A stretch of 64,000 bases of DNA from Tunturibacter empetritectus. GTDB taxonomy: Bacteria; Acidobacteriota; Terriglobia; Terriglobales; Acidobacteriaceae. Position 1 is the stretch's first letter. Each line of letters starts with the position of its first letter. The stretch lies in assembly GCF_040358985.1 (NCBI RefSeq), contig NZ_CP132932.1:1860001-1924000 (forward strand). Reading direction: 5' to 3'. This document shows positions 19,960-61,194 of the stretch, piece after piece. The notes below the pieces were generated by a model. That model searched no databases, was not told the origin of the DNA, and was given only the letters and a program-made list of their open reading frames with translations. The translations under genes were made by a program, and so were the position numbers.

Positions 19960-19965
19960 GACTTG

Positions 19966-30900: not shown

Positions 30901-30995
30901 CCGATGTCGAAGTCATGCTAGACAAGATTCAGGAGAGCCTGAAGCTCGAACCCTCTTTGACCCCACTCTTTACAATCCGGTGGGAGGTGTTATGA
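27936..30995 (+). CDS. SNF2-family helicase with N-terminal excisionase-type HTH
   Basis: A 1,019-residue DNA translocase. Residues about 4-52 form an AlpA/excisionase-like winged helix (LTIREVADLLKINEKTVYKL...GGSWRF). The ATPase follows: motif I LADEVGLGKT (about 134-143), DEAH at 237-240 and motif III LTATPLQNS. The second RecA domain has ATESGAEGINLQ and QRIGRCHRYGQ. The last 250 residues are charged coiled coil. The layout resembles RapA/HepA-like helicases and defence SNF2 proteins such as DrmD. As first gene of the operon it probably supplies DNA translocation to the restriction module. Its stop overlaps the next small frame (ATGA). Confidence 0.88.
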   Translation: MSENVLTIREVADLLKINEKTVYKLAAAAKIPGVKVGGSWRFDRTTLSAWLKTKTTADLSSSSDDADIEPEQLAISAHYSPQQGTFFAHRITLEGTGEDALAQSLSTARVDMNPHQVDAALFALASPLTKGVLLADEVGLGKTIEASLVIAQRWAERKRRILLVVPASLRKQWSQELYDKFSLPSVIVERNSYNDLRKKGIARPFEHVDRVVITSYEFAALKADEVRAGQWDLVIFDEAHRLRNVYKNDGASRAKRLSDATRPFFKILLTATPLQNSLMELYGLVSVIDERHFGDEESFRSQYVAGPGARNGHIFLRKRLEPICKRTLRRQVQQAGLIRYTERSPVTMEYAPSQNELKLYADVSAYLQRQDTIAFGNKPNQLITMVVRKILGSSTFAIADTLKKIIDRLTQMEPPTVETIADYDVIEEQDEELEESESDDAEAPIDLVKLKAEIAELEEYRKLALAIGENEKGNKLVKALPGVLDEIVKKGGERKAVIFTESVRTQRYLVQLLTDEGYADEIVLLNGQNSDPQSKVIYQDWLTRHKGSDAVSGSKTADMKAAVVEAFRDRKTILIATESGAEGINLQFCSLLVNFDLPWNPQRVEQRIGRCHRYGQKIDVTVVNFLNLKNHAEQRIHQLLDQKFTLFKGVFGASDEVLGVIERGVDIERRIFQIVQSARTETEIDAEFDKLQEDLQEQIDEQILDARKRLLESVDEKVIDRLKSRKDEIKSQLSDLEKQLLYVARAELPDARFHANNERRFDYRGDTYTTEWPLADEKGWKFFRLLEGTLATDVVKRAKDRQFDATSCLRFDLSAYRNGRLADVELLRGKAGWARVAKLNIKTPALTREHLVISAVADDGNTVHSETFERLFRVPAHNEPPGGTPPEDALQSCETGRRKDLLDEAEKQNAEWLDVESENLDHYAEDLERAFETEIKTAEAEIKAAKKAMRGSTLPMAEKVAEKRRISSLEGKRDKLKAEFFDRRAKIRADVEVMLDKIQESLKLEPSLTPLFTIRWEVL

Positions 30996-31045
30996 GCATG
31001 AATTTGCTTTATTCAACTACAAAGCATGACGGAGCCGCCATTTGA
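30992..31045 (+). CDS. possible 17-residue coupling peptide
   Basis: A 17-codon frame starting at the ATGA overlap with the helicase stop and ending at a TTGA overlap with the methyltransferase start. The GGAGGTG just upstream is a good ribosome site for it. It may exist mainly to carry ribosomes across the 46-base gap. Whether the peptide has its own role is unknown. Confidence 0.35.
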   Translation: MSMNLLYSTTKHDGAAI

Positions 31046-35449: not shown

Positions 35450-35460
35450 GGGAGCGTCGG

Positions 35461-38400: not shown

Positions 38401-38609
38401 GAGAAATCATCCGCGATATGGTCGAGAACCTCACTGGCAATGCACTTGCGGTCATTCTCGCGCAGAGAAACATAACCATATACCTCAGCACCATACACGT
38501 CATCGACCTAAAGGCAGTTTTAGCGGCGGAAGCAAAACTTCCTCCATTGGTTGGGCACGGGAACATGGACAATATTCAACAGGAAGCTCCGGGAGTGACG
38601 CAGGCTTGA
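35461..38609 (+). pseudogene. GHKL (Hsp90/sacsin-like) ATPase, frameshifted
   Basis: A protein of about 1,050 residues in two frames. The N-terminal ATPase of the Hsp90/sacsin type shows ELLQNAEDAGA (N54 box), DGRMF and GKFGVGFKSVF. The frame breaks near 36945-36954; adding one T would read KSLPHIVRLADG and join the second frame, which runs to 38609. The C-terminus has a probable zinc site, CQICKGP followed by ALCPNHSAMYRH, that resembles HNH-type fingers. The start ATG at 35461 has a GGGAGCG ribosome site. Proteins of this kind accompany restriction-like genes, but their mechanism is not known to me. Confidence 0.8.
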
Positions 38610-40021
38610 GCGATACGCAAGGAAGTGTCAATACGGTTGTGGGTGCTAGTAAAGGAACGCGGGAGGTCGTGTTCATAAGTAAAGCCACGCCCGAAGACGA
38701 TGAATTCGTGCTCTGGCTCGCCCCTCGCCTCGAAGCGGCTGGATATAAGGTTTTTGCAGATATCCTTACCCTTGAGCCAGGTGATCGTTGGCGTAGGGAG
38801 ATCACTGGTACGCTGCAGAACAAGGCAGTGAAGATGCTTCTATGTTGCCGAGATGCCACACTCGATAAGATCGGTGTCCAAGAAGAAATCGGTATCGCGT
38901 CCGACCTAGTTAAGGAGTTGAAAGACCCACGCTTCATCATCCCACTCCGCCTTGAACCTTATAAGAAGCTGTTTGGCATCGGTGAACTTCAATGGATTGA
39001 CTTTTTAGGCAGTTGGGCCAGTGGCCTCCATGACCTGTTGGACGCGCTTGAGAAGCAGGACGTTCCTCGTGCTACAGGCCGAGCCGCGATCAATCCGAAC
39101 TGGGAGCATTATCGAAAGCGACTTGCAATCAGGGTCGAGAAAGCGCCAGAGGTTCTGACATCGAACTGGCTTCGTGTCGCCGGCCTCCCCGACGTGATTC
39201 ATTACTACCACCCGCCGGGACCAATCAATCTTGAGTTGATGGAACGAGCTTGCCGTGAGAGCGTTACACCTGCCGAAGTCTATCAACGTGGCTTTTTTTC
39301 GTTCGCCTCGCCGGAGGAGATCGAGCGCGATTTCGCTAACGTCGCCATCTTTGAGATCCATTCCGAGCATAAGTTAATAGACTTGCTCGAATTCGGCAGT
39401 CAATCACCAAACATAAAGCCGCGCGAGGTACAGAACCTTGTGTCGTCCATGTTCCGCCGTGCGTGGGAGAACTTCTGCCGCTCAAAAGGCCTGTATGAGC
39501 ATCTCTTCTCTTCGCAAACGGCGTTTCACGTCGGCGAGTCACAAATGCCGTTGGGCAAGAGAATTTCCTGGGGCCAGCAGGGTCAACGGCGGTCCTCGAT
39601 GTTGCGAAATGGAGCAGGTGGCAAGGTTTGGCAATATGGTATGTCCGCAACGCCTTCCTTTTGGCCCTTTCCCCACTTCAAGCTCAAAGCGCGCGTCTTG
39701 TTTTTGGAACTGGTTGCGAATAATCGTGCGGGTTCCGTCATCGGAGACAGTGGAACGCAACACCGTCTGCGGCGGACGATTTGCAAAGGCTGGCGCAATA
39801 AAGCATGGCACGGTCGATTGATGGCTTTTATCGGGCTGTTGTCCACTGATACGCCGCAAATTTCAGTGCCCCTTGCCGCGGTGTGCGCCATCGTTCTCGA
39901 CCCTAGACCGATGCTGTTTACGTCGCCGGTGAGCACCGCAATATCGGACGCGATGGGAGATGATGCAGAGGAGTCTGACGATTCCACGCTAGGGATGTTC
40001 AACCCGGAGGATGAGGATTGA
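38606..40021 (+). CDS. TIR-APAZ protein of a SPARTA defence system
   Basis: A 471-residue partner of short Argonaute. Residues about 17-150 are a TIR domain ([22 protein letters not shown]; a candidate catalytic glutamate in VQEEIG), which in known SPARTA systems hydrolyses NAD(P)+ after activation. The rest is the APAZ region ([35 protein letters not shown]), which stands in for the N/PAZ part and holds the guide/target duplex. The TTG start at 38606 overlaps the previous stop (TTGA). The frame is open upstream, but that would bury it in the GHKL gene. An acidic tail ends the protein. The Argonaute follows with a one-base overlap. Confidence 0.9.
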
Positions 40022-41574
40022 TGGATCTGCCTGAGCAACATCTGGAAGTCATTCATGTTGAAGAACCCGAGTTGTCTTTCGGCCACGGGCAGACCTGCGA
40101 TCATCCAAAGGACGGTCTTTTCCTTTACGGGCCTCATACTGCTCTAGCTCGTTCACGCGAAGTTTCGATTGGGGTTGTCGGGACAAAAGATGGCTTGTCG
40201 TATTTTCTGAATTGGGCTATCGCGCTCGGTGGTTTTGTACCTGTTCCTCCACCGAAGAAGACCGACAAGGCTAACCGGCTGCATCTCTCAAATTTCCCAG
40301 GCTTGGAGGAAGCATTCGGGCTGATCGTTAGTCCTGGAGAGTTCGTGCAGCGCACGATCGATCTTAAGGCGCTCGACGAAGCCACGCGCACACTGAATCA
40401 GCACGAAGCGGTGCGAAAAGCAGTGGACCTCTATGTGAATGAGATAGAGCGTTATGACAAGAACGAGGAGAAGACAGTCGATGTCTGGATATTCGTTCTC
40501 CCTGAACTCATTTTTGAGCGTTGCAAACCGCTCGCGCGACGTTCCGGGCTTGATCTAACAATGGGCGAGTTCTCGAAGGGGAAAAGGGAGAAGTCTGATC
40601 TCCCGCTCTTTCGCGATGTCATCGACCAGACCGCAGAGGAGATTTTCGACGATGTGCCGGATTTTCATCGGCAGGTAAAGGCGCGTCTACTCAAGCTCGG
40701 ACACACATCACAGCTCATCCGCGAGACAACGCTGGCACCCGACAAGTTCCTCAATCGTGCTGGCTATCCGATCCGTGGACTGCAAGATCCAGCGACCGTG
40801 GCGTGGAATATGGCGACGGGGCTTTACTACAAGACCCAGGCAGAACCCCCGTGGAAGTTGGCGCATGTGAGACCCAGCGTTTGTTACATCGGGCTAGTCT
40901 TCAAGATGATCCCGAACGATCCGCAACAGCACGCGTGTTGCGCCGCACAGATGTTTCTCAATGAGGGCGATGCGGTCGTCTTTCGAGGAGCGAATGGCCC
41001 ATGGAAAACTGGTGATTACGAGTTCCATCTCAAGGCTCCTGAAGCGAAAAAACTGATTGCCAAAGTCCTGGAAACATTCAAGGACAAGCACGGTGAGCCA
41101 CCGAAAGAGTTCTTTATCCACGGACGCACCACTTTCAGCGAGGACGAATGGAATGCCTTCGAGGAGGCCGCGCCGGAAGGCACAAATGTCGTTGGAGTTC
41201 GCATTAAGGAGACTCATGGCGAGTCAAAACTGTTTCGTGACGGTGATTATCCTGTGATGCGGGGAACCGCAATAATCCTTAATGACCGTAATGCCTTATT
41301 GTGGACGAATGGCTTCGTACCCCGGCTCGATACCTATATTGGCCCGGAAACACCAAACCCGTTATCGGTCACGATTCTGCGCAGTTCGGGGGAGCTCCCC
41401 GACATACGCACTGTGCTCGCCGACATCATGGGCCTAACCAAGATCAACTACAACGCTTGCAACTACAATGACGGTCTTCCCGTCACTATTCGTTTTGCGA
41501 ATAAGGTCGGAGACGTGCTGACGATGGGTTCGGCTCGGGATGCCGACAGGCAGCCCCTCAAATTCTACGTCTAA
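40021..41574 (+). CDS. short prokaryotic Argonaute (MID-PIWI), SPARTA
   Basis: A 517-residue short Argonaute comprising MID and PIWI domains only. Family sequences are clear: [61 protein letters not shown] and [19 protein letters not shown]. The position of the first PIWI catalytic aspartate reads CYIGL, so slicing is not expected; known SPARTA proteins are likewise slicer-dead and use guide RNA to sense invading plasmid or phage DNA. An ATG at 40021 overlaps the TIR-APAZ stop (TGATG). It is the last gene of the defence operon; a GC hairpin without a T-run lies at 41595-41609. Confidence 0.93.
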
Positions 41575-46665: not shown

Positions 46666-46813
46666 TGCACGGAGTGGCCTACCGGAAGCGTCCCTCGTGG
46701 TCTTCGCCCTTCACTCTTGGATAGTTCAAGCATTAGTGACGTGAAGTCGGCATGTGTTTACCAACGTGAGTAGAATTTTGCTGTGGCTCATCTAGTCGTT
46801 TGGAGCAAGCCCC

Positions 46814-49585
46814 ATGCTCTCGATGTCTCCAAAACCGTTGTCAGCAGGGCAAGCGCGGACGTATCACGAGCGAGAGTTCGTGTCCCAGAAGCAGAGCTAC
46901 TGGAGCCGGGATCGGCAGGGCCACAGCGAGTGGCAGGGCAAACTGGCCGAGAGGTGGGGCCTGCAAGGTCCGGTCGGCAATGAAGAGTTTGCCCGACTGA
47001 CAGAAGGCCAACATCCTCTGACTGGCGAACAGCTCGTTCGCCATCAGCCGCAGAAGACCTACGAAAACCAGATTGGCAAGGAAGTCATTAGCGTGGAGCA
47101 CCGTGCTGGATGGGATGGAACCATCTCCGCGCCGAAGTCGGTTTCGATCACCGCGCTTGTGGGCGGTGATGAACGCGTAAGAGAGGCACACCGTGAGAGC
47201 GTCCGTGTCGCCCTAGGGGAGTTGGAACAGTTCACCCAGGCGCGGATCGGCAACGTCCATAAGCCCGAGACGACGGGGAAGTTCGTTGCCGCGACCTTCG
47301 AGCACGACACGGCGCGGCCCGTCGATGGCTATGCTGCGCCTCAACTCCACACCCATGCCGTTATCTTCAACGTCACCGAACGCGACGGCGGCCCCGGCAA
47401 GCTGACCCGCTCCGTGCAGTCGCACGAACTGTACGCCGCCCAGAAGTACGTGACGGCTGTCTACCGGTCGGAGCTGGCGACACGATTGCAGGGGTTGGGG
47501 TATCAGTTGGAGCGTGGGGAATACGGGCAGCCCGAGATCAGGGGCTATACGAAGGAGTATCTCGAAGCCTCGAGTTTGCGCCGGGAACAGATTCAGGATT
47601 ACAAACGTGAGCAGGGTTTGGATGGCTCCTCGGCGGCGCAGATCGCCGCGCATCGGACGCGTGATCGCAAGGAGCTGCTATCGCCTGAAGAGGTGTTGCA
47701 GCGGCACCGGGATCTTGCCGCGCAGTACGGCCATCAAGCGGATCGCATTGTCGCCCAGGCCAGGGAGCAAGGGCAGCAGCAGACCCGGGAACCGGAACGA
47801 GGCGGGAACCAGGCGCAACAAGCCGTGACCTACGCCCGCGATCATCTCTTCGAGCGCGGGGCTGTGCATGCGAAAAAGGACATTCTGGCGGCGGCCCTTG
47901 ATCGTGGCATCGGCGAGGCAACTTCGAGCCATGTGCGGGAGGAGTTTGAGTGCCGCGTACAAACCGGGGAGTTTCGCCAGGTTGAGAACATTGGCACAGG
48001 ACCGCAGTACACGACCGCCGCGATGCTGCGCATGGAACGCGAGACCATCGCCCACATGCAGGCAGGCAACCGGCGCGGCTTCGAGGACCCGATGCTAGTT
48101 TCTCCAGACATTCGAATTGCGACGGAGGATCGCCACCGGGAGCTGAACTCCGGTCAACTCCGCGCCGTCGATGAAATCTTTCTCTCGCGCGAGAAGATCG
48201 TCGGTTTGGATGGAGTCGCGGGCGGGGGCAAGACAACGACGCTGGCAGTCGTGCGCGAGGGTGCGGAGAGTGCTGGATATACCGTGGAGGGTTTTGCGCC
48301 CACATCGAGGGCCGCGCAGAAGCTCGGTGAGGCCGGGATCGAGACCAGGACCTTACAGTCACATCTGGCCCAAGGCCAGAGGGTAGACACCGGCGAGCAC
48401 CGGCTCTATATAGTGGACGAGAGTTCGCTCGCGTCCACGAAACAGATGCACGAGTATGTGTCTCGCCTGCATCCGAACGACCGCGTTCTCTTAGTGGGCG
48501 ATACCCGGCAGCATGAGTCAGTAGAGGCAGGACGTATCTTCGCCCAGCTTCAGGACGCAGGCATGAAGACGGTGAAGCTGGATGAGATCGTGCGGCAGCG
48601 CGACCCGGAGCTGAAACAGACCGTCGAGCAACTCGCGAGAGGCGATGTCCGCGCGGCGCTGGCAGGGTTAGAACAGCAGGGCCGCATCCATGAAATGCAG
48701 GGCCATGACGAACGCGTAGCAGCCATCGCAAAAGAGTATGCGAGGTCGCCGGAGAGCACGTTGGTTGTCTCTCCCGACAACCGCTCTCGAGTGGAGATCA
48801 ACCAGGCGATTCATGTGGAGATGCAGTCTAAAGGCGTTGTCAGTCAGGAAGAGCATCGCGTGCAGGTCCTCGTTCCCCGTCAGGATCTTACCGGCGCAGA
48901 TCGTACATGGGCCGAGCGGTACAACGTCGGCGACGTGCTGCGTTACTCGCGCGACTCCAAAGAAACCGGCATCCACAAAGGCGAGTACGCAAAGGTGACC
49001 GAGATCGACGCAGCCAGCAACCGGCTTACCGTCGAGATGAAGGACGGTATGGAGAAGACCTACGACCCGCGCCGTCAACAGGGTGTCTCCGTTTATCGCG
49101 AAGAGGAGCGAGCGTTCTCCATCGGAGACCGGGTGCAGCTCACCGCGCCTTCCCATGAGCTGAAGGTTGCCAATCGCGAGCTGGGGACCGTGGAGGTTAT
49201 CGGCGAGGATGGGAGGCTGTCCCTCAAGATTGATGGGGGCCGCGCGGTCGAGCTTGATCCGGAGAAGCACCCGCATCTCGATCATGGCTATGCGGTGACC
49301 AGTCATTCCAGTCAGGGTCAGACCGCCGACCGCGTGTTGATCCACGTCGATACCGAGCTGGGGGCCAAGGACCTGCTCAACAATCGCATGGCCTACGTGG
49401 CCGTCTCGCGCGGAGCGCAGGACGCGCAGCTCTTCACCAACGACCGGCAGAAACTCTCCTCTGCTCTCGGCCACGATGTATCGCACCAAAGCGCCCACGC
49501 AACAGAGACCACTACCTCAAAGTCGATTCAGCAGGAGATCGCACCTAAGCATGAACAGCAATACGAGCATGGAATCGGTCTGTAG
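46814..49585 (+). CDS. MobF-family relaxase/helicase (TrwC/TraI-like)
   Basis: A 923-residue conjugative relaxase. The N-terminal relaxase domain has the three-histidine metal site of the TrwC type (FEHD with H164; PQLHTHAVIFN with H179 and H181) and KSVSITALVGGD. Y17 and Y29 are nucleophile candidates. A superfamily I helicase follows, with Walker A GVAGGGKTTTL (about 470), VDESSLAS and the late motif GYAVTSHSSQGQTADRV. The ATG at 46814 has GGAG at suitable spacing. It nicks oriT and leads the strand into a recipient, with the coupling protein at 42308 as partner. Confidence 0.93.
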   Translation: MLSMSPKPLSAGQARTYHEREFVSQKQSYWSRDRQGHSEWQGKLAERWGLQGPVGNEEFARLTEGQHPLTGEQLVRHQPQKTYENQIGKEVISVEHRAGWDGTISAPKSVSITALVGGDERVREAHRESVRVALGELEQFTQARIGNVHKPETTGKFVAATFEHDTARPVDGYAAPQLHTHAVIFNVTERDGGPGKLTRSVQSHELYAAQKYVTAVYRSELATRLQGLGYQLERGEYGQPEIRGYTKEYLEASSLRREQIQDYKREQGLDGSSAAQIAAHRTRDRKELLSPEEVLQRHRDLAAQYGHQADRIVAQAREQGQQQTREPERGGNQAQQAVTYARDHLFERGAVHAKKDILAAALDRGIGEATSSHVREEFECRVQTGEFRQVENIGTGPQYTTAAMLRMERETIAHMQAGNRRGFEDPMLVSPDIRIATEDRHRELNSGQLRAVDEIFLSREKIVGLDGVAGGGKTTTLAVVREGAESAGYTVEGFAPTSRAAQKLGEAGIETRTLQSHLAQGQRVDTGEHRLYIVDESSLASTKQMHEYVSRLHPNDRVLLVGDTRQHESVEAGRIFAQLQDAGMKTVKLDEIVRQRDPELKQTVEQLARGDVRAALAGLEQQGRIHEMQGHDERVAAIAKEYARSPESTLVVSPDNRSRVEINQAIHVEMQSKGVVSQEEHRVQVLVPRQDLTGADRTWAERYNVGDVLRYSRDSKETGIHKGEYAKVTEIDAASNRLTVEMKDGMEKTYDPRRQQGVSVYREEERAFSIGDRVQLTAPSHELKVANRELGTVEVIGEDGRLSLKIDGGRAVELDPEKHPHLDHGYAVTSHSSQGQTADRVLIHVDTELGAKDLLNNRMAYVAVSRGAQDAQLFTNDRQKLSSALGHDVSHQSAHATETTTSKSIQQEIAPKHEQQYEHGIGL

Positions 49586-49777
49586 CCTGCCTGCCCACAT
49601 GTATTGAGTCCGCGCTTGCCGCCACCGCCTGCCTCACGACCGTGTGAGATAAATTCGGGCCAGCGATCAGCGCATTCTCCGGGTTCAAACCGAGGCAAGG
49701 TTTCGGACGGGGCATCGAGTTATCCTACTTTGGGGAGACCTGGTGGTAGAACACTACCTTCGCATGATAAGGGCCTT

Positions 49778-50161
49778 ATGAAAACCACGATTATGGTCAT
49801 GGATGTATTCGTGAGATTCCGCTTAGTCGCCATCGTGCAATCGGAGCAACAGACGCAGGCATGGGAAATGCAGGTAATGGTCATCCAACAGGTTGCAGAC
49901 ATCCTGATTTCCCTTGGTTTTTTGGATTCCAAAGCTGCTGCGCTGCTTACGGAAGCTAGTACCACCATCACGCCTCAGCCAGGCATCAAAACGATTCCGT
50001 TTTCGGATTTTGTCACTTTAACCGAACTCGTCTACCCTGACTCCGAGCCAGTAAGCCTGGAGGCTCAACAGGGCCATGCGCTCATCGCTACTGGCGAAAC
50101 GACAGAAGAAGCCCTCGCCTCCGCAGGCTTTGTATTGAAGATGGACGGCCCGTTGCAGTGA
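49778..50161 (+). CDS. small hypothetical protein after relaxase
   Basis: About 127 residues from the ATG at 49778; the longer frame from 49604 looks non-coding at its N-terminus. The sequence (VFVRFRLVAIVQSEQQTQAWEMQVMVIQQVADILISLGFLDSKAAALL) is helical and amphipathic, with a beta-like C-terminal half. I do not recognise it. It is the last gene before the transposon-like stretch. Confidence 0.45.
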   Translation: MKTTIMVMDVFVRFRLVAIVQSEQQTQAWEMQVMVIQQVADILISLGFLDSKAAALLTEASTTITPQPGIKTIPFSDFVTLTELVYPDSEPVSLEAQQGHALIATGETTEEALASAGFVLKMDGPLQ

Positions 50162-51042
50162 CACTGTCTTGAACAGACGCAATTCTTCCAAATGAAGGAT
50201 GTGTCCGACCTATAGTTCCGCCAGAAACTTCATTAGTGCCTTGTCGTCACGCCATCTTCTCTTTCCTCGAATTGGGCTCAGCTTGTTCAGTTGTGTTCGA
50301 AATCGTTCCGGTGTCAGCGATAAATACCTCTCCGTAGAGCCAATGCCCGCCTGTCCTATATGGGGTCACGTCAGAAAACGGACAATACAGCACGCTAACG
50401 CTTTTTAAATTGTTCCGGGCTGAGACAGTTCATTGCAGAAACGCACGTTTCAGAAAGTAGAAGCGTCTACATTCGCCGAGAGCCATCCGTAGCCGTCGTT
50501 ATCGCGACACCTCAAGAAAAGGAAATTTGTTTACGCTGAGGGTGGCTTTGATGGAGTCGCTATACCAAACGTTAGAAGTTGTGTGATAAGAACTACGCTC
50601 ACTGATTTGAGGCCGCAGGGGTCGTAGCGCTCTGTCAACAAGTAGGATCGTCCGCCTGGTTGACGGCGGGCGACGCCATCTGAGCCGTCTCTTCTGAGGG
50701 ACGGAGAACCGGGAATGCTCGCGGTCGCCCGGCTTACTCATGCGTGAAAACACGCAATATCATCCTGAGAAAAATGCCCCTTACTTGAAGGTTTTGGGTG
50801 GTTTCACAAAAAAATTATAAAAACAGCTTGACACGGATTCAGGGTCATGGCAATGTATGCAGGCTGCTGAACAACAGTCTTCATACGTGCAAAGTTGAGT
50901 AAAGATCGTTCCTGCTGACTGAACTACCTGTGGCTCCTTCTCTCAGACTCAATCACTACAAACTAGCTCTTATTTGCATTCCACCTGTTAATGGAATGCT
51001 CCTGTTGAACTGCGCCTCGAAGCCCGAGATGGGACTCATACC
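50162..51042. other. gene-poor stretch with a Tn3-like terminal repeat
   Basis: About 880 bases with no convincing gene. It holds the repeat at 50362-50399, a 6-bp hairpin TGCGTG-AAAA-CACGCA at 50741-50756, and a TTGACA at 50828 in an AT-rich surrounding that could belong to a promoter for the secreted-protein genes from 51043. Confidence 0.5.
50362..50399 (+). repeat. Tn3-type terminal inverted repeat, second (divergent) copy
   Basis: It begins GGGGTCACGTCAG and ends CGCTAAC. It matches the repeat at 56484-56520 over nearly its full length, with one inserted A and a few changes, in the same orientation. It is probably the end of a related transposon or a relic of an earlier insertion. Confidence 0.7.
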
Positions 51043-52470
51043 ATGGTTGATTCAGAGAAGTTGCCTCATCGAACGCTCCCTAGACTTTTCTTTGCTGCCC
51101 TCCTCACAGCGTGCCTATTCGCCTTCAGCATCTCGCACGCTGCTGCGCAAAGCGGCAAGATTCATTACACCAAGACGACGGCGAATAAGGGTGGCCTGAC
51201 CCCTCTAGTCGCGCCTACTGCGACGGGATCGCGAGTTTATTGGTTTGCTATGAGCACCAATGGCTACGGCTCGCCTCCCATTTCAATGATCTCTTCCTCG
51301 GCGACTGGAGCTCAGACCGATCCCGCTGGAAGTGTCTACGTCATGTCAGATGCGCAAGGAAATTTTCACATCAGTGCTTCGAACAATTGTCCGACTTCCG
51401 AGTCTTTCATGTATTTCCTAATTAGCGGGGGCGAGGTCGGGACGGCTCCCAATAATCCCTCAATCGCAATGGTTGCTGTCATTCCTACGCTCTGCGGCGG
51501 AGGTCATTTCTTCGTTGATATTTCCGAGACCACAACAATTGCAGCAGCCTATGCATTAGGTAGTTTTGCGACGCTCTCAACAGACTCCTTCGCCACGAAT
51601 AGCGATAGCACGTCTGCTTTGCAGAGCGCAGTGGGCTATTCGAGCACTCTCATCGATACTGCGAACGCAGTCATTCCCAACGGCAGCGCCTGGCAGACAA
51701 CGCTAAACACTCTTGGTGACATGATCGAAGCTTGCGTCAATTCGGCGAGCGAATGTCCTACCCTCTTTGCGGCTGCAACACCGCCCGGCGGAACCGCTCC
51801 TACCGATACCTTTCAAGCTGCACTAAACATCGCTCTTAATCCAAATATGAATTTGACTACGCTGTTCAATGCGATACCGTCGTCTCCCGACTTCGGCCCC
51901 ATTTTAAGCACTGTTCCTGCCTCGTGGACGTTGCCTGGCTCCTCCGTTCAGATCACTGGGGTGACTCCAAATCCCGCGCCTGCGGGAACGCCGGTCACTA
52001 TCGTTGGATCCGGCTTTGGAGCTGCCCAGGGTAACGGCGTTGTAATCATAGGCGGCATTCAAGCAAGCGCTTCAAGTTGGAGTGACACGGCGATCGTCGT
52101 GACTGTCCCGGCTGGTGCTGCGAGTAATGGTGTGACGCAGGTCTTTCAAAACGGCTTCCCTAGTAATCCATTTCCCTACAGTATCGGGCCGCTCATCGGT
52201 CCAACCATCATAGGGCTATCGCTTCCCCAAGGTCCGGTAGGAATGGGATTTGTCATTACAGGCAGCAATTTTGGCCCGGCGAGCACAGTCTCTATGGGTG
52301 ACCCCCTTCAAGGTCTCCTCATGGTTCTGAGCTGGAGTCCCACGGCAATCACGGTGCAGATTCCCCAGACGATTGTTTCAGGTGGAAACGTGGTCGTCAC
52401 AGACGGTGGCTTGCCAAGTAATGGGGTCAACTTCACGCTTACAGCTCCTTTTGGCTGTTCTACGCCTTGA
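51043..52470 (+). CDS. secreted IPT/TIG-domain protein
   Basis: A 475-residue exported protein. A signal peptide (LFFAALLTACLFAFSISHAAAQS) is followed by a domain of about 260 residues rich in serine, threonine and alanine that I do not recognise (VYVMSDAQGNFHISASNNCPT). Two C-terminal IPT/TIG immunoglobulin-like folds follow (ITGVTPNPAPAGTPVTIVG; IIGLSLPQGPVGMGFVITG). Such folds serve adhesion or binding at the cell surface. It is the first of five same-strand genes between the two Tn3-like repeats. Confidence 0.8.
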   Translation: MVDSEKLPHRTLPRLFFAALLTACLFAFSISHAAAQSGKIHYTKTTANKGGLTPLVAPTATGSRVYWFAMSTNGYGSPPISMISSSATGAQTDPAGSVYVMSDAQGNFHISASNNCPTSESFMYFLISGGEVGTAPNNPSIAMVAVIPTLCGGGHFFVDISETTTIAAAYALGSFATLSTDSFATNSDSTSALQSAVGYSSTLIDTANAVIPNGSAWQTTLNTLGDMIEACVNSASECPTLFAAATPPGGTAPTDTFQAALNIALNPNMNLTTLFNAIPSSPDFGPILSTVPASWTLPGSSVQITGVTPNPAPAGTPVTIVGSGFGAAQGNGVVIIGGIQASASSWSDTAIVVTVPAGAASNGVTQVFQNGFPSNPFPYSIGPLIGPTIIGLSLPQGPVGMGFVITGSNFGPASTVSMGDPLQGLLMVLSWSPTAITVQIPQTIVSGGNVVVTDGGLPSNGVNFTLTAPFGCSTP

Positions 52471-52539
52471 CTCGGCAACGCCTTTCTGACTCTTTGGGTT
52501 TCACCATCAGTGGGCTTCTACAAAAAATGAGGACTGGTT

Positions 52540-53169
52540 ATGAAGCGAATGCACAGCACGGCAATTTTTCAAGTTTTGTGTTTTTGGGTTTGTCTTCAAT
52601 GCTCCTTGCTTTTGAGCCCAGCAGCGGCCCAGTCCCCTACCAGCGCTCCGTCCGTTGGTCATGGTCACGAAGTGCCACTGGAGCATCTCTACTGGCACTT
52701 TCTCGATTATCAGTTGTTCCTGGACAAAAAAGCAGACGCTCTGCCTCCGTCGCATCCAGACGTGCAGATGCTACGCACCCATTACCAGAGCCGACTTGGG
52801 TTCAACGATTCTCAGTATTCTCTAGTTCGTCAAGCGGCTCAGACCTTGGCAGCTCGCCTTAAGCAAAAAGATGAGCAGGCTAAATCGGTAATAGACGCGT
52901 TTCACCATAACTATCCACCCGGCAAAGTACTCACATTGCCTCCGCTACCTCCGGAATTAAGTCGGCTTCAGGCCGAAAGAGAAGCAATCATCTCTGAAAC
53001 AGTTGTCGATCTAAAGAACCAGCTGGGGGCTAAAGCATCAGCGACGATGGATGCGTTTCTTCATAAAGACTTTCTCCCAACGGTCGCATTCAAGCCTATG
53101 CATCCTCCGGGGCCACCGCATCTCCCCCAAACGTCGAACGATCAAGTCTTCACGGCGGTGAAGCCATGA
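52540..53169 (+). CDS. secreted helical protein of unknown function
   Basis: A 209-residue protein with a signal peptide (FQVLCFWVCLQCSLLLSPAAAQ). The mature part is mostly alpha-helical and charged (SLVRQAAQTLAARLKQKDEQAKSVIDAF; LQAEREAIISETVVDLKNQL) with a proline/histidine-rich C-terminus. No family recognised. Its stop overlaps the next start by four bases (ATGA), so the two are co-translated. Confidence 0.7.
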   Translation: MKRMHSTAIFQVLCFWVCLQCSLLLSPAAAQSPTSAPSVGHGHEVPLEHLYWHFLDYQLFLDKKADALPPSHPDVQMLRTHYQSRLGFNDSQYSLVRQAAQTLAARLKQKDEQAKSVIDAFHHNYPPGKVLTLPPLPPELSRLQAEREAIISETVVDLKNQLGAKASATMDAFLHKDFLPTVAFKPMHPPGPPHLPQTSNDQVFTAVKP

Positions 53170-55421
53170 ACATTGTGCTCAAAGCGTGTGTACGTCTCTA
53201 TCTCTTCGTAGTTTTAGCAGCCGTTTTCATCTTTGCCACTGCCGCGCATGCTCAGAGCTATGTCGAAGGCATTTCTGAAGTGCTCCCCTCTACGACTTCC
53301 ACCACTATCTACACCTTTACCAATACCTACATCACCTACGATCTCACGGCCTACTACTCGCCTTACACCGAAGCCTATTTGTACGACAACGGAAGTTTCC
53401 TTGTCAGCAATTACACTTACACAACCGATGGGCAGAACGCTCCGTTGGACGGTCGTATTCCAAACATCAAAACTGGTGACGATTACGAGGTAGATGGTGC
53501 TCATTACCTCACTCAGCTCTACGTGTTCGACGATGGAAATGGAGGCACTTACTACGAAAACCCCTACCAATATGGCTTTACAGAAGGGAATCAAAGTTCC
53601 GGCTACGACTACTCCAGCGGCGGCGGCGACTACTATACCTACGTGAGTAACCTTTTTCTTGGCTACACGGCCGCCGCCATCTCGACTGCCGTTCCGCAGA
53701 TTACCGGGGTCTCACCTTCGGGCGCAGCCAGAGGAACATCTGGTCAAATCACTGTCACAGGATCACATCTTGTAGACGTGTTCGATGGCACCACAACGCC
53801 AACCGTTCTATCAGGTTCCGGGCTTTCTCTGACCACCGGTAGCCTCAGTGCAACCCAGGTAACCTTGAATTACTCGATAGACGGCAGCGCCGCGACGGGC
53901 GCGCGTCAATTCACCCTCAGCAATCGCTTCGGTCAGAGCGAGCCACAAACATTTACTGTCGGCGATCCCTCTCCGGTTGTCGCTGATGTGGAACCGCATC
54001 TCTGGCCGGCCGGTACGGTCATACCGCTTACCATTACCGGATCGGGCTTCGGCATTGCGCCTACTGTCACCATCGCTGGAGTGGGTGTGCTCACTCCCAG
54101 TCCTGCGGCAACGGGTTCGGACACCAGCATCTCTACAAGCGTTTCCATAGCGCTCGATGCGCCGGACGGTCCCGCTACTGTGACCGTGCAGTCCCACGGT
54201 TCAGGAGGAAATGGATTCGTCCAAGGGACACCGGGACAATCGTCGTCAGGTAGCAACGGGGCTGTGATCGTTGCGTTTCCGGCCCCTGCTCCAACCATTG
54301 TCCTGGGATCTGGAACTACGGGCGTGTGCACGTCGGGATCACCTGTAACGTCAAGTCAGAACGTTGTAGTTGGGCAACCGATAACATTTACCGGCTGTAT
54401 TCCACCTTCAGGCACTCCTCTTGTTGCAAGTGAAACTTGGAGTCCAGATGGTAAATTCTCTGCACAGACAGCGGTTGCGGGCTTTACCGTAAGCTTTGAC
54501 GGAACCTCGCAATTCACTGAGGCTCTGACGCAGATATCGAATACTTCATGCGCAGCAGGGCAGTATTGTGATTTCAACAAATTCTATTTTGTCACTCCTG
54601 GCACTTACACCTTCACTTTTTCCTACCTTGCAAACAATGGAACCACCCCACCGTCGGTATCAATTACGTTCGTAGTGGCCGGTCCAAATTTAGATTCCCG
54701 AGGTAATTTCATGGAGGGCCCCGACAACAATACGCCGCCGACGGCTGGCCCGGTACAGATATACGGCGTCGGCCAGTATTTTGGCCAATTAACTGCAAAC
54801 ACTACGCCCGAGCTTGCGAATGGAAATAACGAAGACACCAATGGGATGGAACTGACAGTCACGGGAACGGCTCCGACCGGATTCTCTGGTGGTGATTGGA
54901 GGTTCGTACAGGTAATCAATCAGTTGTCATATTCGTACACATCTTCGCCAACAAGCAGCCCATTCGTTTTACAGCCCGGTTTGGATACGTTGTACCCTCA
55001 TAGCAGCGCGAACATCTTGTTCATGGATTCTCCCGGTATGGTGCTTGATCCAACTCACTTTGGCAGAACTCAATTTGTTTCGGTGGGAGAGGAATCCGAA
55101 AGCGCAAAATTCACAACCTATCTTTTGTGGGACCCTCAGATCGCGACGGATGGGTCGCATGATTGTAGTTTGGCATCGAGTCAACAGGCCTCTAACGGAT
55201 CTATAAGTTATAGTGACTCGACGTGCGTCTCCATCCCAATACCTATGGCTTCGCTCTCATGGGGTTTCGCAGGAGATGCGCTCAAGACTCTTAATCCGGG
55301 ACAAGGGGCAGGAACAAATACATGGATTCTTCAGTGTGGAACAGCCAATACACCCGGTTTAGGAGCAGCTGGCTACCCAAACTGGACATTCACAGAAAAT
55401 GCGCGCTACTTTAATCAGTAG
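53166..55421 (+). CDS. large secreted IPT/TIG-domain protein
   Basis: A 751-residue exported protein with signal peptide (LYLFVVLAAVFIFATAAHAQS). The N-terminal 170 residues are tyrosine/threonine-rich. Then come two IPT/TIG folds (ITGVSPSGAARGTSGQITVTG; VEPHLWPAGTVIPLTITGSG) and a C-terminal half with several cysteines and aromatic strands. It resembles the first gene of the set in layout and may act with it at the surface. The start overlaps the upstream stop. Function unknown. Confidence 0.75.
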   Translation: MNIVLKACVRLYLFVVLAAVFIFATAAHAQSYVEGISEVLPSTTSTTIYTFTNTYITYDLTAYYSPYTEAYLYDNGSFLVSNYTYTTDGQNAPLDGRIPNIKTGDDYEVDGAHYLTQLYVFDDGNGGTYYENPYQYGFTEGNQSSGYDYSSGGGDYYTYVSNLFLGYTAAAISTAVPQITGVSPSGAARGTSGQITVTGSHLVDVFDGTTTPTVLSGSGLSLTTGSLSATQVTLNYSIDGSAATGARQFTLSNRFGQSEPQTFTVGDPSPVVADVEPHLWPAGTVIPLTITGSGFGIAPTVTIAGVGVLTPSPAATGSDTSISTSVSIALDAPDGPATVTVQSHGSGGNGFVQGTPGQSSSGSNGAVIVAFPAPAPTIVLGSGTTGVCTSGSPVTSSQNVVVGQPITFTGCIPPSGTPLVASETWSPDGKFSAQTAVAGFTVSFDGTSQFTEALTQISNTSCAAGQYCDFNKFYFVTPGTYTFTFSYLANNGTTPPSVSITFVVAGPNLDSRGNFMEGPDNNTPPTAGPVQIYGVGQYFGQLTANTTPELANGNNEDTNGMELTVTGTAPTGFSGGDWRFVQVINQLSYSYTSSPTSSPFVLQPGLDTLYPHSSANILFMDSPGMVLDPTHFGRTQFVSVGEESESAKFTTYLLWDPQIATDGSHDCSLASSQQASNGSISYSDSTCVSIPIPMASLSWGFAGDALKTLNPGQGAGTNTWILQCGTANTPGLGAAGYPNWTFTENARYFNQ

Positions 55422-55431
55422 AAAGGGATGT

Positions 55432-55914
55432 ATGAAATTTTATCCGCGTGGATATGAAATGGTCATAGGTCTTGCGTCCATTCTATTAATATTAGGTTCG
55501 CCTACAGTGGCACAGCAGAAGCCCTCAACGTTCGAAATGACAGTTTCTTTGCCCGAACCGACTATGCACGTTGGGGAGGACTTGATTGTGAAAGTGATTA
55601 CATCAAATTCAACTGATGATACTGTGTCCGCCGGTAGCGGATATGGGGTGGGTGTTGAAGTGGAGCTGATGAACAACAAGGGCGAAGACATTGGAATCCA
55701 CGCCATGGGCGGTAAAGGGGTGGAACCAGTCGTAACTCTTCACACCAACAAGCTGATACTAAAGCCACACAGCAAAGACGATTTTACATGGCGATTCAAA
55801 CCAGAGCCTGGATTTTTGATGCCTGGAGTTTATAGGCTCCGGGTTCACAGACGCGATCTAAAATCTCGCATGGATGTGTACTCAAATACCGTTGTGCTTA
55901 CGGTGGTTCCTTAG
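55432..55914 (+). CDS. small secreted beta-type protein
   Basis: 160 residues from the ATG at 55432, which has an AAAGGGA ribosome site. A signal peptide (MVIGLASILLILGSPTVAQ) is followed by an immunoglobulin-like pattern (MHVGEDLIVKVITSN, LKPHSKDDFTWRFKPEPG, GVYRLRVHRRD). No named family is assigned. It is closely related in pattern to the next gene. Confidence 0.65.
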   Translation: MKFYPRGYEMVIGLASILLILGSPTVAQQKPSTFEMTVSLPEPTMHVGEDLIVKVITSNSTDDTVSAGSGYGVGVEVELMNNKGEDIGIHAMGGKGVEPVVTLHTNKLILKPHSKDDFTWRFKPEPGFLMPGVYRLRVHRRDLKSRMDVYSNTVVLTVVP

Positions 55915-55919
55915 CTCCG

Positions 55920-56474
55920 ATGCTGATTTCGACATCTATCCGTTTCGATAATTTTCGATGCCGGATAGCGCAACTGCTGATGTTTCCAATTGTGGGATCT
56001 ATCTCGGCATCGCAGCAAGCTCTTGCAATTGTGCCTTCTGCTCACGATGATTTTCAGAAAGCCTCAAGCAACGATTCCCCAGGAGTCAATCAGCGGTTCT
56101 CTCTTAGTATTAAACAAGTTGAGCTTCCATCAGTAAAAAAGGAAGAAATGCTACTTCAGATAACCGTGACCAATTTAACAGATAAAGTGCTTGTTATTCG
56201 AACGTTTAGGGGAAGCGTGAGTGATCACAGAATCGTACTAAAGCAGGGCTCTTCTCAAATCATGCAACGCAATGATACGTCCGAGGGGGAGGCCCCCCTC
56301 GGACGTGAAGGGGCTGGTACGATGGTTCAGCCACACTCGAACACACAAGAGTTGGTTGGTCTTAAGCGGTTATATAGCTTGAGTAGCGGGAGCTACAACG
56401 TCTACGTAGTAGATCGCGATCCAGTTACGAAAAGCCTAGTCAGGTCAAATACCCTAACTGTGGAAATACCATAG
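55920..56474 (+). CDS. small secreted beta-type protein, relative of the previous one
   Basis: A 184-residue protein with an N-terminal hydrophobic segment (LLMFPIVGSISASQQALA). Its fold pattern is the same as its neighbour's: LLQITVTNLTDKVLVIRTFRG, VQPHSNTQELVGLKRLYSL and GSYNVYVVDRD. Only five bases separate the two genes. It ends ten bases before the transposon repeat at 56484. The function is unknown. Confidence 0.65.
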   Translation: MLISTSIRFDNFRCRIAQLLMFPIVGSISASQQALAIVPSAHDDFQKASSNDSPGVNQRFSLSIKQVELPSVKKEEMLLQITVTNLTDKVLVIRTFRGSVSDHRIVLKQGSSQIMQRNDTSEGEAPLGREGAGTMVQPHSNTQELVGLKRLYSLSSGSYNVYVVDRDPVTKSLVRSNTLTVEIP

Positions 56475-56483
56475 GATCATCCT

Positions 56484-56520
56484 GGGGTCACGTCAGAAAC
56501 GGACAATAGAGCATACTAAG
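56484..56520 (+). repeat. Tn3-family left terminal inverted repeat
   Basis: 37 bases starting GGGGTCACGTCAG and ending ACTAAG, the usual G-rich outside and TAAG inside of Tn3-family ends. The resolvase stop codon lies within its last bases. Confidence 0.8.
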
Positions 56521-57073
56521 GGTGATTCGAGGCTGGAATCCATCTGTAGAGTGTTGGGACGGAGACGCCAAGATTGCCAGCCACGTCACGAGGTGGCACT
56601 CCGCTGGCGAGCAGCTTCTTGGCTGATTTGATCTTGCTGTCGGTCATCTGCCGCCTCCGGCCACCTTTTCGGCCGAGCAGGCGGGCAACTTCAAGTCCCG
56701 CGCGGGTTCGTTCGATGGTGAGCTCCCGTTCCATCTCCGCGAGGCTGGCCATGACGTGGAAAAAGAAGCGCCCCGAAGCGGTGCCGGTGTCGATCGCGTC
56801 GGTGAGGCTCTTGAACTGCACGCCCTCGTTGTGAAGTTTGCCAACCAGATCCACGAGATGCCTGACGCTTCGGCCTAGTCGGTCCAGCTTCCAAACGACA
56901 AGCGTATCGCCTTCGCGGAGAGCTTCCTGCGCTTTAGTCAGCCCAGGCCGTTCGGCCCGGCTGCCGCTGATCTTGTCCGAGAAGATCTTCTTGCAACCAG
57001 CTTTGGTTAGGGCTTCGGTTTGGAGTTCGAGGTTCTGATCCTGGGTGGAGACACGAGCGTAGCCGATCAGCAT
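56516..57073 (-). CDS. serine resolvase (TnpR-like)
   Basis: A 185-residue serine recombinase that resolves cointegrates at res. The N-terminal catalytic domain shows IGYARVSTQDQ, with the nucleophilic serine, then VVWKLDRLGRS and the E-helix AEMERELTIERTRAGL. A C-terminal HTH (GVPPRDVAGNLGVSVPTLYRW) binds res. The ATG at 57073 has a GGGGAG ribosome site; an in-frame TTG precedes it by two codons. It is divergent from tnpA across the res-like region. Confidence 0.93.
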   Translation of the reverse strand: MLIGYARVSTQDQNLELQTEALTKAGCKKIFSDKISGSRAERPGLTKAQEALREGDTLVVWKLDRLGRSVRHLVDLVGKLHNEGVQFKSLTDAIDTGTASGRFFFHVMASLAEMERELTIERTRAGLEVARLLGRKGGRRRQMTDSKIKSAKKLLASGVPPRDVAGNLGVSVPTLYRWIPASNHP

Positions 57074-57139
57074 GAACAACTCCCCTCATTCTCAGAACTC
57101 ATCGATTTGCGAGTTGATTGAGAATAGCATTTGAGAACT

Positions 57140-57207
57140 GTTTATGAGAACGCAGAACGTGAGGTTTCAGCCACTTTCCCCGATGTTCGTTGAGTGTTCT
57201 CATAAAC
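57140..57207. promoter_or_regulatory. res-like region between resolvase and transposase
   Basis: GTTTATGAGAAC at 57140-57151 and its exact inverse GTTCTCATAAAC at 57196-57207 lie in the 156-base gap between the divergent tnpR and tnpA genes. Several related TGAGAAC words occur nearby. Position and repeats fit the resolvase binding subsites and shared promoter. Confidence 0.65.
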
Positions 57208-57229
57208 CTCTGTTTTCAAGAGGAGCCTT

Positions 57230-59995
57230 ATGCCCCGTCGTTCCATCCTTTCCGCCGCAGAGCGGGAGAGTTTGCTTGCCATTCCCGACAGCCGAGATGA
57301 CCTGATCCGGCAGTACCCCCTGAGTGAATCCGATCTCTCGATCATTCGGCAACGCCGCGGCGCGGCGAACCGGCTCGGTTTTGCGGTGCAGCTCTGCTAT
57401 CTACGGTTTCCTGGCGTTGTGCTCGGTGTCGATCAGCTGCCTTTTCCACCTCTGCTTCACCTTGCCGCCGGACAGTTGAAAATCCCGGTCGAGCACTGGG
57501 CCGAGTACGGCAGCCGCGCCCAGACGAGGCGAGAGCATCTGGTCGAACTTCAAACAGCTTTCGGCTTTGAACCATTCACGGCGGCCCATCACAAGCTCGC
57601 CGTCCAGGAACTGATTGAAACGGCGATGCAGACGGACAAAGGCATCGTGCTTGCGAACCAACTGGTTGAGAGACTTCGCCAACGAACGATTCTTCTTCCA
57701 CGCCTGAACGCCATCGAACGTGTCTGCGCAGAGGCGATTACCCGCGCCAATCGCCGCATCTACAAACAGCTGACCGATGGGCTGACAGATATCCACCGCG
57801 AGCGGCTGGACCAACTGCTCGCGCGGAAAGAAGACAGCAGCATGACCCGGCTCGGATGGCTTCGCCAGTCGCCGCTCAAACCAAACTCCAAGCACATGCT
57901 CGAACACATCGACCGGCTCCAGACATGGCGTGCTCTCGATCTGCCCTCCGGGATCGAACGCCAGATTCATCAGAACCGCCTTCTGAAGATTGCGCGGGAA
58001 GGCGGCCAAATGACTTCGGCTGACCTTATGAAGTTCGAGCGAGAGCGCCGGTACGCAACGCTCGTCGCGCTGGCCGAAGGAACGGCCACGGTTACTGATG
58101 AGGTGATCGACCTGCATGACCGGATCGTCGGCAAGCTGTTCAACACTGCGAAGCACAAGCATCAGGATCAATTTCAAGCTGACGGCAGAGCGATCAATGA
58201 CAAGCTCCGGCTTTATGGGCGTGTCGGTCAGGCGTTGCTCGAAGCAAAGCAAAACGGCGGCGATCCATTCCTGGCCATCGAGCAAATCGTCTCCTGGGAT
58301 GACTTTGCCGCGAGCATCACAGAAGCGCAGAAGCTCGCGCAACCGGAAGGTTTCGACTTTCTCTTCCGGATCGGCGAAGGGTACGCAACTCTACGGCGCT
58401 ATGCGCCCGATCTGTTGAACGTACTCGGATTGCACGCCGCTCCCGCCGCCAAGCCGGTCCTAGATGCCATCGGACTGCTGCGGGAGATGAATGCCGCCAA
58501 TGCTCGCAAACTGCCTGACGATGCTCCTCTCGACTTCATCCGCCAACGCTGGTCCAAGCTCATCTTTACCGATACGGGCATTGACCGTCGCTACTACGAA
58601 CTGTGCGCCTTGGCGGAACTAAAGAACGCTCTGCGTTCCGGTGACATCTGGGTTGAAGGCTCTCGCCAGTTTAAGAACTTCAATGAATACCTGTTGCCTG
58701 CTCAGAAGTTCGCGGCGCTTAAGGGCGCACATGAGCTCCCTCTTGCTGTCGCTCCAGACTGCGAAGAATATTTGAAAGTGCGGCTCGAAACGCTAAATGA
58801 GCAACTCAAATTGGTCGATCAGATGGCCGCCGCCAACGACCTGCCGGATGCGATCCTGACCGACTCAGGCTTGAAGATCACGCCGCTTGACGCGACGGTG
58901 CCGCAACCGGCACAGAACCTGATCGATCAGATTGCGGCATCACTGCCACACGTCAAGATTACTGAGTTGCTTCTCGAAGTCGACACCTGGACAGGTTTCA
59001 CGAAGCATTTTGTTCATCTGAAAAGTGGCGATATGGCAAAGGACCGGATACCTCTGCTGACTACGATCCTGGCCGATGCGATCAATCTCGGCCTGACCAA
59101 AATGGCGGAATCCTGCCCTGGAACCAGCTACGCGAAACTCTCGTGGCTGCAAGCCTGGCACATCCGCGACGAGACCTACGCCGCGTCCTTGGCCGAGATC
59201 GTCAATACCCAGTTTCGGCAACCCTTCGCGGAGCATTGGGGCGACGGAACCACGTCGTCCTCAGACGGGCAGCGTTTCAAGGCTGGAGGCAAAGCCGAAA
59301 GCACCGGCCACATCAATCCCAAGTACGGAGCCGAACCGGGCAAGCTCTTCTATACCCATATCTCGGATCAATACGCGCCGTTCAGTTCCAAAGTCGTCAA
59401 CGTCGGTGTGCGCGACTCCACCTACGTCCTTGACGGACTCCTTCACCATGAATCCGATCTGCGGATCGAGGAGCATTACACCGACACTGCGGGCTTCACC
59501 GACCACGTCTTCGCTCTCATGCATCTGCTCGGCTTCCGCTTCGCTCCACGTATCCGCGATCTGAGCGACACCAAGCTGTACCTTCCAAACGGCAAGACCA
59601 AGTATCAGGCACTCGCGCCCATGATCGGCGGGGCCATCAATCTCAAAGCGATCCGCAACCACTGGAACGAGATCCTCCGCCTCGCCACTTCGATCAAGCA
59701 GGGTACCGTGACGGCTTCGCTCATGCTTCGCAAGCTGGGCAGCTACCCTCGCCAGAATGGCCTCGCAGTCGCCCTGCGCGAGTTGGGCCGGATCGAAAGA
59801 ACCCTATTCATCCTCTCCTGGCTTCAAAGCGTCGATCTCCGCCGCCGCGTTCACGCCGGCCTCAACAAAGGGGAGGCCCGAAACGCGCTCGCAAGAGCCG
59901 TCTTCCTCTGCCGTCTTGGAGAGATCCGAGATCCCCTGTACCATGCCTGGTCGGCACCAGCCACGTTCCTCTGCATAGCCGAAGAACGTTCGTAA
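57230..59995 (+). CDS. tnpA: Tn3-family transposase TnpA, C-terminally truncated
   Basis: A 921-residue DDE transposase; full-length relatives have about 960-1,000. The N-terminal DNA-binding region ([25 protein letters not shown]), the central helical part and the catalytic domain ([57 protein letters not shown]) are normal. The late helix [12 protein letters not shown] is present, but after RLGEIRD the usual continuation is replaced by foreign residues ending IAEERS. The catalytic glutamate region (NKGEARNA) is kept. The ATG has AGGAG upstream. Confidence 0.92.
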
Positions 59996-60580
59996 CGCCT
60001 GGCACTGCGTTGCGACTGTTGCGAGCTGCCAACCTTCATCGCGCTTGGACATCAGAAACCGATCCACATCATTCATCGAAATGAGCGCCAGCTCGCTGTG
60101 CCACGATGATGCCCACCGCAGAAAATCCTGAGTCCTTCGGGTGTAGCTGCGAACGGTGGCCGGTGAGAGTCCCCGCTTGGATGTCAGCGCGTCTCGGAAG
60201 TCGTCGATGATGGGATCAAACCCTGACCCTGAGGTGGGAGGAAGAGTAAGACATCCATGGAAACTGAGCCAGGCCTTCGCGATCCTGGCAAAGTTCTTAG
60301 GAGTCGCTCCGGCACCGATTCCCGTCTTCCTTCGCTGCGGACTGCGATACTCAATCCAGCGATTGCTCGCTTCTGCGATCTCATGCTGCTCCACATCACG
60401 AAGTGTGTCTAAGGCCATGAGTTGAACGATGTGAATAAGAAAGGCCGCAACACACCGGACTTGAGTTGCTCCCAAACCCTTTTCTAAGAGGTGCGTAAGA
60501 TACTCATCCCGTTCTCTAAGGAGCGGAGCAGCACGATGGCGGGCGTGAACGCTTGGATAATATGAGACGCTTTCAATCAC
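59804..60580 (-). pseudogene. tyrosine recombinase, N-terminal part only
   Basis: A XerC-like recombinase fragment. The core-binding domain is clear ([56 protein letters not shown]). From about 59925 leftward, the frame reads antisense tnpA ([11 protein letters not shown]...), and no catalytic Arg-His-Arg-Tyr residues exist. The start is GTG at 60580. The junction with tnpA shows that the two elements recombined or that one was deleted into the other. Confidence 0.8.
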
Positions 60581-61194
60581 TTTGGTCTACCTCCGGGGCG
60601 ATGAATTTGGAACATACCGTTCGTCCACAGTTCTCAAAGACTAATCAAATCCTGCGATAGGCTTGCTAATTCTGTCCGGAAGCCTCCCTGCCTCGACCGC
60701 TTACACGTTCTGCTTCTCCGGATACAAGAGTTGAGTCGCGAGCCATAGCAGATTCGGAGTTGTGCTCAGGGACAAGATTGAATTCCTGGAAGTTATGGAA
60801 GAATTGAACGCAGAGGCCGCGCTTTGTTGCGGTCGGGGCACTCTGTCTTTCTTGGCGCGGCGCACATCGTCGCAGGAGGACGTAGGCATGATGGTAGAGA
60901 GCATGAGGTATGAAGAGAGTTTGGCCCGAGAGCATGGGCCTGTATTCAGCTTCGCTCGCTCTATCTTCGAGACGAGGCGACTCCCTAAGGTTGGCACTAC
61001 ATGGAATGTGGAGGCGGAAGCAGTGACTCTCCGAGAGCTGCCTTTTGGTTTATGAATCCAAGAAGCGCGATTCTCTGACTAAGCCGAAAGACGGAGATCA
61101 CAAACCTAAATCGGGTTCTAGATCGATGCGGTCACGGTGCGGAATATTGCTCGACTTGGCGAAGCAGGATTACCGTTACTCGATCATCCGTTGT
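60581..61194. other. gene-poor stretch after the transposon
   Basis: About 610 bases. One 97-codon frame (60762-61055, + strand, LEVMEELNAEAALCCGRGTLSFLARR) is possible but matches nothing I know and lacks a good ribosome site; a similar-sized frame exists on the other strand. I regard the stretch as degraded sequence. Confidence 0.4.

Follow-up and report, generated by a model that had tools for sequence, protein, structure and literature searches.

The locus described here, in the genome of Tunturibacter empetritectus, raises the question of how five genes for probably exported proteins came to lie between two transposon ends of the Tn3 type that face the same way. It was studied in a window of 64,000 nucleotides, corresponding to positions 1860001-1924000 of the 5.03-Mb genome (contig NZ_CP132932.1); plain coordinates below are those of the window. 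A preliminary description had placed near-identical right-facing repeats of 37-38 bases at 50362 and 56484 with the five genes between them, and these coordinates are correct. We consider it probable that a single extended transposon of the Tn3 family and the Tn21 kind, now decayed and provided with two left ends, makes up the DNA from 50362 to about 59929. The core of this element would have consisted of an inner left end (IR2), the resolvase gene tnpR, a res site, the transposase gene tnpA and a right end, now lost. The five-gene operon would lie outside the left end of this core, with a second end of the same orientation (IR1) beyond it.

IR1, the presumed outer left end of the inserted unit, occupies 50362-50399 on the forward strand and is a Tn21-like 38-bp end with the sequence GGGGTCACGTCAGAAAACGGACAATACAGCACGCTAAC. 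IR2 spans 56484-56520 and likewise faces right. The two are identical in 33 of 38 aligned columns, IR2 having one base fewer (a 1-base deletion) and four substitutions. A chance repeat is ruled out by shuffling: local alignment of IR1 with the next 9.6 kb gave a score of 28, whereas 200 first-order Markov shuffles reached at most 15. Among the matches listed from a plasmid collection, IR1 is identical at 33 of 37 positions to a site beside merR in NC_002134, which we take to be Tn21. The collection held 4,488 records with a match to IR1 at E values up to 10, and the best of these (E 5e-6), on pDCAR1, is a transposon end on inspection. The pDCAR1 element itself (L083, 9001-16566) is bounded by Tn21-type ends with an AACAA duplication; a resolvase gene adjoins one of these ends, and the Tn3 transposase is quite different, at 27.6% to the TnpA of the window. 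At positions 9 and 22 the bases of IR1 and IR2 agree with each other and differ from those of the pDCAR1 ends and of the ends of a transposon on Acidovorax pEP1 (NZ_CP117194.1). Because of these common bases the two repeats are probably of one lineage.

A profile of four ends, IR1 itself included, was scanned over 50340-60640, with 40 shuffles as the null (maximum 17.0). Three right-facing sites exceeded the null, at 50362 (46.3), 50503 (24.4) and 56483/4 (21.4). No left-facing end in this range did so, the top left-facing score being 6.3, and no hidden left-facing partner was thus found.

Directly at IR2 the transposition genes begin. The last codons of tnpR (56516-57079, reverse strand) overlap IR2; its product of 187 amino acids is a predicted serine resolvase (Pfam Resolvase, 1.1e-46), with 84-89% identity in the ten best plasmid records listed. 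tnpA (57230-59930, forward strand, truncated at its 3' end) is divergent from it. The gap between them, 57080-57229, is the presumed res site, so named solely from its position and from a pair of 20-bp inverted arms (57140-57159 and 57188-57207); for divergent tnpR and tnpA, such a position of res is given in PMC7157771 (in excerpt). With 1132.5 bits against a cut-off of 500 for NCBIfam transpos_Tn3 (positions 2-887 of the 954 in the model, the last 67 missing) and 7.6e-129 for Pfam DDE_Tnp_Tn3, the tnpA product is a DDE transposase of the Tn3 family. Its frame departs from the family directly after GEIRD, a motif that presumably contains the third residue of the DDE triad. The triad of the transposase is described in PMC9579193 (in excerpt).

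In the pEP1 transposon a left end abuts tnpR and the divergent tnpA encodes a protein 78.0% identical to the TnpA of the window (701 of 899 residues). Its ends, of the same 38-bp type as IR1 and IR2, are presumably Tn21-type ends. End sequence and closely related TnpA together would place the element in the Tn21/Tn1721-type subgroup. Since pEP1 has the same layout, IR2 can be regarded as the left end of the core, and therefore the operon lies outside it. The pEP1 transposon differs from the locus in having two ends only, both flanked by ATGGA, and permease and regulator genes between tnpR and tnpA. Relatives of TnpA were found at a single locus in the genome_contigs collection. Relatives of tnpR also occur directly behind PIN-like genes in stretches where no Tn3 transposase was seen, namely in a genome of the host's family (L057, 337-1278; PIN-like by eye) and on an insect-symbiont plasmid (L084, 5398-6558; annotated as DUF433 and DUF5615 PIN-like).

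That the block is inserted DNA follows from relatives in which the insertion point is uninterrupted. The window lies partly in a mobile island, and related islands are present at other places in genomes G209, of the same species, and G191. In G191 the order is relaxase, small gene and two overlapping integrase genes (named by likeness). On the left, window 49745-50364 matches L033 6801-7419 of G191 with 84.7% identity and the match ends within three bases of the start of IR1; on the right, window 59930-60612 matches L033 8836-9519 (81.3%). The match to G209 covers 3,621 bp at 92.2% (46744-50361), and its last base is the one directly before IR1. Integrase sequence crosses the insertion point in both relatives, as whole genes in G191 and for about 50 bp in G209 before a break (by eye). 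In the window the first integrase gene, apparently a tyrosine recombinase gene by likeness to that of G191, is interrupted by the insertion and retains its 3' remnant at 50210-50361 (reverse strand). Because the flanks match the integrase region of G191 on both sides, all of the DNA from IR1 to about 59929 is, as judged by these alignments, inserted; and because IR1 fits the insertion point, the last insertion would have used it as its left end. The preliminary description had suspected inserted DNA, a relic with captured genes. Insertion and passenger are both supported, and the insert extends past 56520, where that description ended it, to about 59929.

The five genes are absent from this place in G209 and G191; relatives carrying them here without repeats, the finding that the preliminary description had named as contrary to capture, were thus not encountered. 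The same comparison bears on the idea that the operon is old island cargo around which the Tn3 ends are later, unrelated debris. The operon does have a leader stretch of its own, partly common to genome G150, and relatives elsewhere without a detected Tn3-type end nearby. Yet integrase sequence occupies the place of the operon block in the islands of G209 and G191, and the break falls exactly at IR1, which makes this idea very improbable.

At the insertion point itself the relatives read CCATATA and the window reads CTATAT followed by IR1. The five bases to the left of IR1, which end at 50361, are TATAT. A search for a 5-bp target duplication had been proposed; it gave TATAT on the left, while the place of a right copy is missing; TATAT is presumed to be the single remaining copy. 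It is AT-rich, as are the targets of Tn1721 (PMC8725868, in excerpt).

The right junction is of a different kind. Comparison with G191 places the middle of tnpA next to the 5' remnant of the second integrase gene (59930-60580, reverse strand), a predicted tyrosine recombinase gene with a SAM-like integrase domain that is 81.3% identical to the intact gene of G191. The two kinds of sequence, that of tnpA and that of the integrase, share GATC(CC) at 59926-59934, and relative to G191 the integrase pair lacks about 1.4 kb (1,416 bp by the limits of the alignments). This looks like a deletion and not like a transposition end.

These features also bear on one-ended transposition, in which IR1 alone would have carried the DNA to its right up to a random stop within tnpA and placed it in the integrase gene. 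Such events with variable end points are known for Tn21 (PMC4133298, in excerpt, citing Avila 1988), and the left boundary of the insert is indeed IR1. But on the right one would then expect a 5-bp target duplication and the unbroken target to follow; instead the flank picks up again about 1.4 kb beyond that point, within another gene and with a short overlap. No variable end followed by a target duplication and unbroken target was found, and the transposase would have to have come from another copy. We consider one-ended transposition quite unlikely, and as the plain event that placed the block, as proposed in the preliminary description, it does not agree with the missing 1.4 kb and the GATC overlap. 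One-ended transposition may have served as the initial capture step, or may have been followed by a deletion.

The extended transposon accounts for the locus as follows. The transposase would have paired IR1 with the right end and moved operon and core jointly into the first integrase gene of the island at a TATAT target. The comparison with G191 shows that the element now lacks the tail of tnpA and its right end, and that the second copy of the target is missing together with about 1.4 kb of the two integrase genes; a single later deletion probably removed them all. As far as the sequence tells, a second left end of the same orientation does lie beyond a passenger outside the core, which is the arrangement expected of an extended transposon. 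Since intact transposase and right end are gone, no autonomous movement is expected and the element is now probably immobile by itself.

Several points weigh against this explanation. Joint movement by IR1 and a right end cannot be seen, as the right end and the second target copy are lost, and we can only infer it. An intact extended unit was not encountered either. The preliminary description had suggested looking for the right-end repeat elsewhere in the genome; no second copy of IR1 was found there, neither within 3 mismatches nor with a relaxed pattern. None was present within 3 mismatches in 249 other genomes of the host's family; an exact search of viral contigs with the first 26 bases of IR1 also gave no match. 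Another copy of the five genes did not appear in a DNA search of 299 genomes of that family, the host's own included, in which only two candidates were scored per genome. The sites without insert in G209 and G191 lie in related, not identical, islands, and in G209 integrase sequence continues for only about 50 bp (by eye). Finally, in the precedent Tn1721-blaKPC-2 the gene was also moved by the type that lacks an additional left end (A1), at a frequency about 12 times lower than that of the B type (0.95e-6 vs 1.13e-5; PMC8725868, in excerpt). Because the A1 type still moved its gene, the extra end is helpful in that precedent but not required.

The passenger consists of five open genes on the forward strand, whose N termini resemble signal peptides (by eye; least clear in gene 5). 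Gene 1 (51043-52470, 475 amino acids) encodes two IPT/TIG stretches. Gene 2 (52540-53169, 209 amino acids), gene 3 (53166-55421, 751), gene 4 (55399-55914, 171) and gene 5 (55920-56474, 184) have no reliable Pfam match. Relatives of genes 1, 2 and 3 occur, with their order preserved, in two genomes of one other genus (G148 and G128), where a large predicted exported protein is encoded ahead of them and a small gene resembling gene 4 or 5 (by eye) follows; the alignment scores of the latter in G148 are 37 and 47. G035, of a third genus, has a diverged and partly duplicated version of the operon. Gene 3 has matches in the host and five others of 250 genomes of its family: nearly whole length in G148 (34%) and G128 (32%), a large part in G035, and about 120-130 residues in G055 and G022. 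No relative of gene 3 was found in genome_contigs or viral contigs, with a method suited to close relatives, nor in plasmids by tblastn. In the loci of G148, G128 and G035 (13-14 kb each) no Tn3-type end scored 15 or more with a three-end profile. Because the relatives of genes 1 to 3 keep their order in another genus without a detected Tn3-type end, the operon is, by this comparison, older than the insertion. It is a rare accessory set of probably exported proteins with immunoglobulin-like domains that became a passenger, and we infer that these proteins likely reside at the cell surface or are released from it. No island with the operon but without IR1 was found at the DNA level among the 299 genomes.

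The DNA between IR1 and gene 1 holds traces of further events. A third right-facing end, IR3 (50503-50540), was missed in the preliminary description. It is degenerate and represents a different kind of Tn3-type end. A profile built from Tn21-type ends alone puts 50503 at the null limit (13.6 vs 13.4), and 31 of the 38 positions of IR3 agree with each of the two ends of an element in G284 (L037), the best chance match in 60 shuffles being 22. Next to it, at 50541-50732, lies a non-coding piece common to G271 (80%), where it is found between the 3' end of an integrase gene and an IS110-type gene (both by eye). The G271 copy (L035, 6783-7439), too, sits within an integrase gene, in its 3' part and next to the IS110-type gene (by eye). 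A fourth end within this piece was considered and not counted: L035 6870 scored 21.7 with the three-end profile (one shuffled window reached 16.7), and the matching window site at 50553 scored only 5.1. Upstream of gene 1, the promoter- or leader-like stretch 50827-51048 (forward strand) is 74% identical to the DNA ahead of another gene in G150, whose product looks exported by eye. This leader motif occurred in 2 of the 299 genomes, the host and G150 alone, and is not a widespread element. A known RNA in 50100-51200 was rejected, as both Rfam matches lie far below their gathering scores. By these likenesses, IR3, the G271 piece and the G150 piece show the DNA upstream of the operon to be a patchwork.

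This history is relevant to a further alternative, two independent insertions, in which IR1 would be all that remains of an older transposon, its transposase and right end having been lost, and the core would have arrived afterwards, facing the same way, just behind gene 5. IR3 is the trace of at least one further Tn3-type element at this place, and IR2 starts 9 bp after the end of gene 5. Yet an additional loss event is required, and between IR1 and IR2 there is neither a second transposase gene nor a left-facing end above the null. Moreover, IR1 and IR2 are alike, and target immunity disfavours an insertion of the same kind 6 kb away (PMC9579193, in excerpt). Two independent insertions are thus unlikely. 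From the successive insertions of the preliminary description the pile of several Tn3-type ends stands, and IR3 so close to IR1 suggests that earlier Tn3 insertions contributed to it.

The extended transposon itself sits in a larger mobile island of about 43.8 kb, which reaches from about 22018 to contig position 1925801, just beyond the window end. The island is absent from this place in G209, where the chromosome is uninterrupted and the two flanks overlap by about 23 bp; the core common to the island ends is CGTTCAGGATGA(C/G)AACT. At its left end lies an integrase-type gene (22181-23602, by eye), and it also encodes a TraD-like coupling protein and a MobF relaxase. A TIR-type protein beside a short prokaryotic Argonaute is encoded at 38240-41574 (PADLOC Aga_TIR, 9.1e-176; pAgo_I, 2.1e-210), presumably a SPARTA-like defence pair. 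A second defence cluster (27936-36984) comprises a DrmD-like helicase, a type III methyltransferase, a type III restriction enzyme that by eye seems split into two frames, and a TmtA-like gene, all in a row. A short intergenic repeat at 19964-20062, with similar repeats at 15041 and 15580, has dozens of listed matches in G209, G250 and G271.

A literature search on Tn3-family elements in acidobacteria found nothing on the subject. Beside the window, the G284 element (L037, 4984-10213) has both ends and a TATCT duplication, with an IS6-like gene between tnpR and an N-terminally shortened tnpA, and an exported-looking gene (L037, 8948-10156) lies between its tnpR and one end. In G150 a lone Tn3-type end (L036, 1089) is found about 4 kb from exported-looking genes. 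These cases could mean that in the host's family Tn3-type elements repeatedly pick up genes for exported proteins and move surface-protein genes between islands, here by means of an extra same-facing end. We regard this as doubtful, since the element of G284 is no longer intact and about 4 kb separate the G150 end from the genes concerned.

The locus would be a natural case in which a second same-facing end of the Tn21-like type captured a passenger other than a resistance gene. It also provides a record of a rare secreted-protein operon that travels on a transposon, itself part of a larger mobile island. The sites without insert put the steps in order, insertion by IR1 first and loss of the right end later. 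The locus also makes clear that same-facing ends are no proof of one-ended transposition.

Capture of a passenger by an extra same-facing end is an already known route for such elements. Tn501 has a vestigial end, which was not found in the literature searched. Foreign DNA is also moved by Tn3-type ends in TIMEs and their mosaic transposons; TIMEs are miniature elements with inverted ends (PMC4133298, in excerpt), whereas this locus combines two same-facing ends with a core. Tn1721/Tn1722 resembles the locus in having core, passenger and a third same-facing end, the layout here being its mirror image (PMC5756416, in excerpt). In Tn1721 the extra end repeats the right end and lies next to a partial copy of tnpA (same source), whereas here it is a left end with no second tnpA or tnpR found beside it. 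Similar too is the B-type Tn1721-blaKPC-2-IRL2, which adds a passenger and a further left end to the Tn1721 core (order as read from the text; PMC8725868, in excerpt). Unlike the operon described here, its passenger is a resistance gene together with other elements, and its movement has been measured (same source).

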